Source of the DNA: Nitrososphaerota archaeon
Lineage (GTDB): Archaea > Thermoproteota > Nitrososphaeria > Nitrososphaerales > Nitrosopumilaceae
DNA: 44,110 bases
Direction: 5' to 3'
NCBI GenBank assembly: GCA_021325595.1
Contig: JAJPGX010000001.1
Coordinates: 79,491 to 123,600, forward strand
The notes under the pieces were generated by a model, which was not told the DNA's origin, did not search any database, and worked only from the letters and a program-made list of their open reading frames with translations. Position 1 is the stretch's first letter. The number at the start of each line of letters is the position of its first letter. Below, in pieces: positions 40,912-43,405 of the stretch. Position numbers and translations under genes: made by a program.

Positions 40912-41106
40912 TTGAACAAGAAGAGAATAGGTAGGCTGATCTTGTGGTTTGGCCTGATAGGTTTAGGTACATTTCTCTTCCTGAATTTAGATCTTGCACA
41001 CCGCAGAAGAGACATCTATCTTATTTTTGCACTCTCATTGGGGCTCTTTATTGTTGGTTGGGTGGGACTTTTTAGATATTCTAGATTTTGGAATATGTTG
41101 GAATGA
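40912..41106 (+). CDS. Small two-helix membrane protein
   Basis: 64 residues with helices at about 8-24 and 37-53 separated by a basic loop AHRRRD. The start is TTG at 40912; a stop codon (TAG) lies directly upstream in frame. A TATA-like TATTTTAAATC lies about 30 bp upstream. Function unknown. Confidence 0.6.
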   Translation: MNKKRIGRLILWFGLIGLGTFLFLNLDLAHRRRDIYLIFALSLGLFIVGWVGLFRYSRFWNMLE

Positions 41107-41236
41107 TTGATCAATAACCTAATATGCGTAGTTTTTTTGTATTTTTGTCTCATTTAACTAAAATATATTTCTGAAATAAATTTTCTTGATGTGAAATCTT
41201 AGAAATTTTTAAATAATTTGAAATTTATATTATACA

Positions 41237-41362
41237 TGCACATGGCCCGCAAATCCATGGCTTGACAGTTGCGTGGTCTGGCAGGAACATGATAGATAAC
41301 CGCGCATAGGCGCAGGTTGAAACGGAGGTAATCTCCAATTGTCCTGCATGAGGACCACGCCC
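41237..41362 (+). ncRNA. Structured non-coding RNA candidate, three-way junction
   Basis: GC-rich island in an AT-rich gap. Closing stem GCGTGGTC (41271-41278) pairs with GACCACGC (41353-41360); stacked on it GCAGGA (41281-41286) pairs with TCCTGC (41342-41347). Inside, AACCGCGC (41298-41305) pairs with GCGC-A-GGTT (41310-41318) around an ATAG loop, and GGAG (41324-41327) with CTCC (41333-41336) around GTAAT. A 5-prime hairpin CATGG/CCATG (41241-41259) precedes it. Two TATA-like boxes (41206-41215 and 41224-41234) lie upstream. It matches no family that I recognise; the closing stem sits four bases from the convergent gene stop. Confidence 0.7.
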
Positions 41363-41363
41363 A

Positions 41364-41882
41364 TTATTTTGTTCTATTCTTGTAAAATTTTTGAAATATG
41401 AAAATGGCCCCTATGATTCCACCTGCACCTGCAATTCCTGCAGTAATAAGATATGAGAACATTGTATTGTAGAAACTTAATACGCTCAGATTAAATGCAT
41501 TTGAAGTAATTCCACCCGTTTTCAAGTTGTACAAATCAATTCTTACCACATGGTTGCCAGACTCTTGAAATACGTATCCAATATCCCAACTTCCTGCAGG
41601 GTATGTGGTTGCAGGAAAAGATCTGAGAAGCGCATCATTGTAAAAAATCTGTAAACCCATCCTAAACGAATCTACGAGGTTACCATTTTGATCTAGTACG
41701 CGAAGATGAATCTTTGTTTCCTTTCCTACTTCTGGGATGGGAGGGGTGGTAGACAATTTAATCTCATTATCTCCAATTTTGATAGAATCTGTACTAAATG
41801 GTGGGTTGAGCACTTCATAAACACCAAGGACAATAAAAAAACCAAAATACACTGGAAGTAAAAGGTAGTATTTCTTGTTCAT
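41364..41882 (-). CDS. Membrane-anchored extracytoplasmic protein
   Basis: 172 residues. An N-terminal hydrophobic segment (LLLPVYFGFFIVLGVYEVL, about 6-24) acts as signal or anchor; a beta domain follows (about 35-130, with IHLRVLDQNGNLVDSFRM and ESGNHVVRIDLYNL, similar to YtkA/Ig-like folds). A C-terminal membrane helix (LITAGIAGAGGIIGAIFIF) and basic tail end it. I do not know the function. Its stop is four bases from the structured RNA candidate. Confidence 0.72.
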   Translation of the reverse strand: MNKKYYLLLPVYFGFFIVLGVYEVLNPPFSTDSIKIGDNEIKLSTTPPIPEVGKETKIHLRVLDQNGNLVDSFRMGLQIFYNDALLRSFPATTYPAGSWDIGYVFQESGNHVVRIDLYNLKTGGITSNAFNLSVLSFYNTMFSYLITAGIAGAGGIIGAIFIFQKFYKNRTK

Positions 41883-42844: not shown

Positions 42845-43405
42845 GTGCCTCAAACAAAACCGATTGTGGACATTGTAAACGTGGTTGCCTCTGCTTCAGT
42901 CGATCAAAAAATCGATTTAGTTGAGATTACCAAAGTTTTTCCAGATGTAGAATATCATCCAGAGCAATTTCCAGGTCTAGTCTTTAGATTAAAATCTCCA
43001 AAGACTGCCACTTTGATATTTAGCTCAGGCAAGATGGTATGCACTGGTTCAAAATCAGAAGAAGCTGCAATCAATGCAGTCAAAACTGTGGTGCAAAAAC
43101 TCCGAAAAGGAAAAATAAAAATAAAAAATGATCCTGAAATTACAATCCAAAACATTGTTGCATCAGTGAGTCTTGGAGGAAAAGTTCACTTGGAAAGAGC
43201 AGCAAGAAGCTTGCCAAGATCAATGTACGAGCCAGAGCAATTTCCAGGACTTATACATAGAATGCTTGATCCAAGATCAGTAGTACTGATATTTGCATCA
43301 GGAAAGCTTGTCTGTACTGGAACAAAGAAAGAATCTGAGGTATACCGCGCAGTTCATAATCTACACACATTGTTAGAAGAAAAGAAACTAATGGAATACG
43401 AGTAG
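42845..43405 (+). CDS. tbp: TATA-binding protein
   Basis: 186 residues with the two TBP repeats (about 8-92 and 99-182). Each contains the characteristic FPGL(V/I)xR and GK(M/L)VCTG strands: EQFPGLVFRLKSPKTATLIF and SGKMVCTG in the first, EQFPGLIHRMLDPRSVVLIF and SGKLVCTG in the second. TBP binds TATA boxes and recruits TFB and RNA polymerase, so it controls basal transcription of all genes here. The start is GTG at 42845, about 27 bp after a TATA-like TGGTATATATGGTAC. The long upstream gap (about 267 bp) may carry extra control. Confidence 0.97.
   Translation: MPQTKPIVDIVNVVASASVDQKIDLVEITKVFPDVEYHPEQFPGLVFRLKSPKTATLIFSSGKMVCTGSKSEEAAINAVKTVVQKLRKGKIKIKNDPEITIQNIVASVSLGGKVHLERAARSLPRSMYEPEQFPGLIHRMLDPRSVVLIFASGKLVCTGTKKESEVYRAVHNLHTLLEEKKLMEYE

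Follow-up and report, generated by a model that had tools for sequence, protein, structure and literature searches.

A conserved micro-ORF adjoins a three-way junction in a multicopy predicted small RNA family of the Nitrosopumilaceae

The RNA rnTrpL of Sinorhizobium is a trans-acting attenuator leader RNA, and dual-function small RNAs such as SgrS/SgrT, RNAIII/delta-haemolysin and Spot 42 encode peptides of 15 residues or more whose sequence is selected. In archaea, Tan1 is an abundant non-coding RNA (ncRNA) of 229 nt from planktonic marine Euryarchaeota (Ca. Thalassoarchaea), of unknown function (PMC5069720). Nitrification is driven by the ammonia oxidisers of the Nitrosopumilaceae, which rank with the ocean's most abundant cells and in which little is known of RNA regulation. 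We describe a family of structured RNA units of ~125 nt in the Nitrosopumilaceae, present in multiple copies and previously uncatalogued, whose transcription as small RNAs is inferred. It resembles Tan1 in being a lineage-specific archaeal ncRNA and differs from it in length and host group (the two sequences were not compared), while archaeal RNase P RNA and SRP RNA, which are also structured RNAs, of the housekeeping type, in similar genomes, differ from it in size (~280 and 310 nt). No earlier description of this RNA was found in the open-licence literature searched, although a brief earlier mention cannot be excluded.

The member analysed here occupies positions 41236-41362 (+) of the window, by which we mean the whole 44,110-nt stretch of DNA and whose numbering we use throughout; we consider it very probable that a conserved structured RNA gene is present there (Table 1). 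An initial sequence-only reading had proposed an independent RNA folded as a three-way junction, with a promoter of its own and outside any known family, built of nested stems, two inner hairpins and an extra 5′ hairpin, and all of these helices were present where it had placed them. The minimum free energy of 41206-41362 was -48.1 kcal/mol (z -2.6), with 1 of 200 shuffled sequences equally stable, and the antisense strand of this segment folded nearly as stably. Because the fold energy beat the shuffles only modestly and the antisense strand behaved alike, we set it aside as sole evidence for an RNA, and comparative evidence had to decide.

Table 1. Features of the RNA locus and its convergent neighbour, in window numbering.
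Feature	Position	Strand	Basis
TATA box TTAAATA of the RNA promoter	41209..41215	+	Fixed spacing; part of an invariant stretch across 22 aligned loci
Predicted transcription start, at or beside the start codon (leaderless)	41235..41237	+	TATA spacing (inferred; no transcript data)
Leaderless 9-codon micro-ORF, ATG CAC ATG GCC CGC AAA TCC ATG GCT TGA (MHMARKSMA)	41236..41265	+	Comparative
5′ hairpin P1, overlapping the micro-ORF	41238-41261	+	Fold; stability z in 34 representatives
Three-way-junction domain	41271..41360	+	Fold, covariation
Closing helix P2	41271-41279/41352-41360	+	Fold, covariation
Helix P3	41281-41286/41342-41347	+	Both-side changes in 6/7 modelled pairs
Hairpin P4	41297-41319	+	Sequence varies, pairing kept; both-side changes in 7/7 modelled pairs
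Hairpin P5, GGAG-GUAAU-CUCC, most conserved tip	41324-41336	+	Conservation, covariation
T-rich 3′ flank, probable termination region	41363..41385	+	Base counts, 52 copies
Convergent gene for a 172-aa membrane-anchored protein; neighbour, not part of the RNA	41364..41882	-	ORF list

That evidence came from compensatory changes. In an alignment of 46 diverse copies, which was not fitted to the structure, 20 of the 28 pairs displayed such changes, in 131 cells against 41 ± 7 in shuffles. The same proportion of pairs was supported in an alignment of 100 copies, which was fitted to the structure, with 272 compensatory cells against 56 ± 16 when shuffled and at most 50 in slid controls; 95% of its cells were paired, compared with at most 54% in the slid controls. 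The nested stems and three-way junction are thus maintained by compensatory changes, and the junction was also more stable than its shuffles (mean z -5.08). The least variable parts were the foot of P2 (GCGU with CGC/CGCC), invariant or nearly so, and the tip of P5, which reads G-N-A-A-U closed by GAG/CUC; across the 100 sequences the first G and last U of this loop and the CUC that follows are near-invariant. In the family the P5 stem has 5 bp, of which the outer two pairs covary. A role of the window's GGAGGU as an anti-Shine-Dalgarno mimic was rejected, since P5 stems of paralogues read GAGAG, GUGAG or AAGAG.

Known families were not found. Rfam 15 at its gathering threshold gave no match in the window or for the RNA of a further 20 loci, and none was obtained for eight diverse members at E ≤ 1; Rfam matches at lax E-values were dismissed as chance only. 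ARAGORN called no tRNA or tmRNA in the window, and elsewhere its only calls were tRNA-His genes that neighbour the RNA at two loci. Both RNase P RNA (RF00373) and SRP RNA (RF01857) were rejected, since the genome has one of each elsewhere, on contigs C14 and C21. Inspection, by eye only, revealed no ACA or C/D boxes. The sequence-only reading had named compensatory changes in relatives and a match to a known family as checks on its claim; both were run, and the presence of the former and the absence of the latter favour an RNA. Its independent, promoter-bearing RNA of no known family is accordingly supported by comparative evidence, in the absence of transcript data. It had overlooked the leaderless 8-9-codon ORF in the 5′ hairpin, the further copies that this genome holds and the wide occurrence of the RNA across the Nitrosopumilaceae.

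With blastn, the window spot was matched in 21 of 36 same-genus genomes, and in the aligned relatives conservation extended over the promoter, the 5′ segment and the four helices of the junction, with the same convergent gene following. With a covariance model built from 23 sequences, the RNA was detected in 204 of the 250 Nitrosopumilaceae genomes (the window's family), often two or three times, including all 37 genomes of the window's genus, Ca. Nitrosotalea. The window's own genome encodes two copies besides that of the window, at C1:1786-1920(-) and at C22:39547-39672(-), three in all. When the junction alone was modelled from 46 diverse copies and searched against 400 genomes of the class, this second model matched 199 of them, at 1-4 copies each, and none of its listed matches lay outside the window's family. 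A degenerate DNA pattern run against 84,980 bacterial and archaeal species returned at least 119 stretches; all of the records inspected were ammonia-oxidising archaea or archaeal MAGs from such samples, and the second model confirmed 91 of the 91 pattern loci tested. The pattern had no match in IMG/VR viral contigs, on which ground a viral origin was rejected. On copy number and position alone, a mobile repeat was also rejected: copies are few and corresponding loci are common to different genera. Nitrosopumilaceae genomes without a match included G037, G040, G061, G045, G063, G078 and G048, several of which are small; the absence may reflect loss, a late origin or divergence.

In the copies where it could be placed, the TATA box of the promoter, TTAAATA or a near variant, lies 58-64 nt upstream of P2, and the distance from its first T to the start codon is 26-32 nt, mostly 28-29 (27 in the window copy). 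The two TATA-like boxes of the sequence-only reading therefore held in part: only that of Table 1 is positionally conserved, and the other, TATATTATA (~41226-41234), sits immediately before the start codon and does not qualify as a further conserved promoter. Beyond the RNA, T was the commonest base at each of the first 12 positions in 52 copies; in the window this flank overlaps the 3′ end of the convergent gene. We infer, without transcript data, that the RNA is transcribed as a stand-alone unit from its own promoter.

The 5′ segment carries a second conserved feature. An ORF of 8-9 codons ending 3-5 nt before P2 was present in 132 of 134 distinct copies, against 1.9 in dinucleotide shuffles, and the same test at other anchor positions of the same sequences gave 0-5, mostly zero. 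Because the copies are related, these counts do not represent independent events; after clustering at 70% identity, 29 of 31 clusters had the ORF. Start codons in the 132 copies were ATG (106), GTG (17) and TTG (9), and TAA, TGA and TAG are all in use as stops, while TGG was never seen at the stop position (against 6.1 expected for independent positions). No stops interrupt frame 0, while +1 contains them in 113 and +2 in 48 of the 132 copies. Whole codons separate the 8-codon from the 9-codon form, and one 7-copy group has its start shifted inward by exactly one codon. The ORF is broken in two copies, L022:1476-1606 (-), with one base missing, and L184:7410-7504 (-), with its stop lost. The junction is intact in both, and the genome of the latter has four copies of the RNA; these two may be decaying copies or sequence errors. 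A readthrough or frameshift product was rejected, since the frames past the stop close at scattered distances.

The peptide sequence itself appears unconstrained. In 27 close pairs we counted 8 synonymous and 36 non-synonymous changes (expected 9.9 and 34.1), a test that, with 44 changes, has little power. Related peptides do recur (MPKDIIPID, MRKDIIPID, MSKDTILID), and no motif is common to the whole family. We concluded that the reading frame is kept and that selection on the peptide was not detected, within the limited power of the test. The micro-ORF segment also folds, with a mean z of -2.26 in 34 representatives compared with 0.09 in upstream control DNA, and frame conservation might conceivably ride on the conserved hairpin and its flanking motifs, but the variety of stops and the frame bias speak against this. 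Selection of the ORF for translation is, in our judgement, likely, in the absence of ribosome profiling.

Comparison of paralogues revealed two modules. Among 34 within-genome pairs the median identity was 88% for the junction and 68% for the ORF segment, and one genome has two identical junctions whose ORF segments are 68% alike; 51 of 57 ORF segments were nearer another genome's copy than their own paralogue. These identities, together with the nearness across genomes, indicate that the ORF follows the locus and that the junction tends to follow the genome.

The surroundings of the RNA vary by locus. Of 41 loci, 30 have their next ORF on the opposite strand and 11 on the same strand, from which we conclude that the RNA does not serve as a leader for the gene next to it. 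The commonest neighbours are a divergent short-chain dehydrogenase gene and a convergent gene for a ~145-aa membrane-anchored protein, and others are what we take to be thermosome, Hsp20, superoxide dismutase, TFB and CorA-like genes; these names derive from sequence inspection and general knowledge, without profile searches. In the window, the stop codon of the convergent gene adjoins the RNA 3′ end, and its 172-aa product has no Pfam family. The sequence-only reading had suggested that the closing stem could also serve as a 3′-end signal for this gene, which is not supported as its main role because the RNA recurs in many unrelated settings and, of 41 loci, 11 have no adjoining convergent gene. 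Upstream of the RNA is a 64-aa ORF (40912-41106, +) with hydrophobic, membrane-like segments (RIGRLILWFGLIGLG...). A TATA-binding protein gene (42845-43405, +) lies ~1.5 kb from the RNA, and the third copy in the genome (L100) adjoins a TFB gene.

We propose a stand-alone, translation-coupled small RNA in which an interchangeable minigene feeds a common junction, and as a whole we would regard this proposal as no more likely to prove right than wrong. Its structure, ORF, promoter position, family and modularity are shown; transcription, leaderless translation, action in trans and the existence of a partner are inferred, there being no transcript, ribosome-profiling or genetic data. Ribosomes would load leaderless on the 5′ AUG, GUG or UUG, elongate briefly through P1, with the peptide sequence of little weight, and terminate with their leading edge on the foot of P2. 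About a dozen nucleotides downstream of the ribosomal A site lie inside the mRNA channel, so that a ribosome terminating on the micro-ORF would reach the invariant P2 foot, and on our proposal translation of the minigene would thereby gate the junction, whether in its state, its stability or its binding to a partner. The junction would act in trans, probably via a protein or the ribosome itself, and the paralogues of one genome would combine differing minigenes as inputs with a nearly identical junction as output.

Of the alternatives, a purely non-coding RNA survives best, though we consider it unlikely. Hairpin and junction would form a protein-binding scaffold and the micro-ORF would be a by-product of hairpin and linker motifs, as might be suspected from the stability of both elements relative to shuffles and from the lack of detected peptide constraint. 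Against this stand the near-universal ORF, far above the 1.9 copies expected, the use of three starts and three stops and never TGG, the freedom from stops of frame 0 alone and the whole-codon length shifts. Conversely, the locus could be a peptide gene, with an 8-9-residue product (a signal, toxin-like or regulatory) and the junction as a stabilising 3′ untranslated region. The conserved, promoter-proximal ORF, the recurrence of similar peptides and the locus-specific ORF segments would fit; synonymous changes are not in excess, however, there is no family-wide peptide motif, and within genomes it is the junction, not the ORF, that is the more conserved module, making this reading very unlikely. 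Equally improbable is an antisense small RNA acting in trans, whose single-stranded or loop segments would base-pair with mRNAs: the RNA is multicopy, apparently stand-alone and ~125 nt long, and the variable P4 and joining segments could hold target specificity, but no conserved unpaired seed of useful length exists and the invariant bases lie in helices and the P5 tip. Finally, a cis element, either a 3′-end or termination structure of the convergent gene or a neighbour's leader or riboswitch, is suggested by the T-rich flank and by a convergent stop few nucleotides from the RNA end in the window and several loci, but is the least likely of these readings, given a TATA box that the RNA carries at constant spacing in almost every copy and neighbours that are unrelated across loci and universal on neither strand.

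The translation-coupled reading can be carried further. As a tentative possibility, these RNAs may constitute a new translation-gated class, in which several paralogues of one genome place different leaderless minigenes, as ribosome-read inputs, before a shared output domain; if so, the RNA would be a readout of translation, whether of initiation, of particular codons or of termination, and would act in trans. A multicopy RNA kept in most genomes of the family, small ones too, is probably important to them, and the fixed link between minigene and three-way junction is a testable claim on the coupling of translation termination with RNA structure. The covariance model and micro-ORF rule allow the RNA to be located in cultured species and in existing transcriptomes.

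Among known systems, the new RNA is most like the dual-function or trans-acting leader-peptide RNAs, yet it fails the defining features of both, because no peptide constraint was detected and there is no downstream gene. A leader-peptide attenuator requires a regulated same-strand gene downstream, which is not met with an opposite-strand ORF in 30 of 41 loci, and a dual-function RNA requires a selected peptide sequence, which is not met by the low-powered counts above (8/36 against 9.9/34.1). Compared with rnTrpL-like RNAs, it is archaeal and multicopy, has no downstream operon, is predicted to start leaderless at the transcript end, keeps a fixed 8-9 codons without recurring special codons, and forms a three-way junction rather than attenuator hairpins. 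Compared with dual-function small RNAs, its peptide seems unconstrained and its stop lies at a fixed distance from a helix. It shares with rnTrpL-type RNAs, which are released as small RNAs, a short ORF directly before an RNA structure (alternative or stable), and with the dual-function small RNAs the union of a small ORF and a structured part on one RNA.
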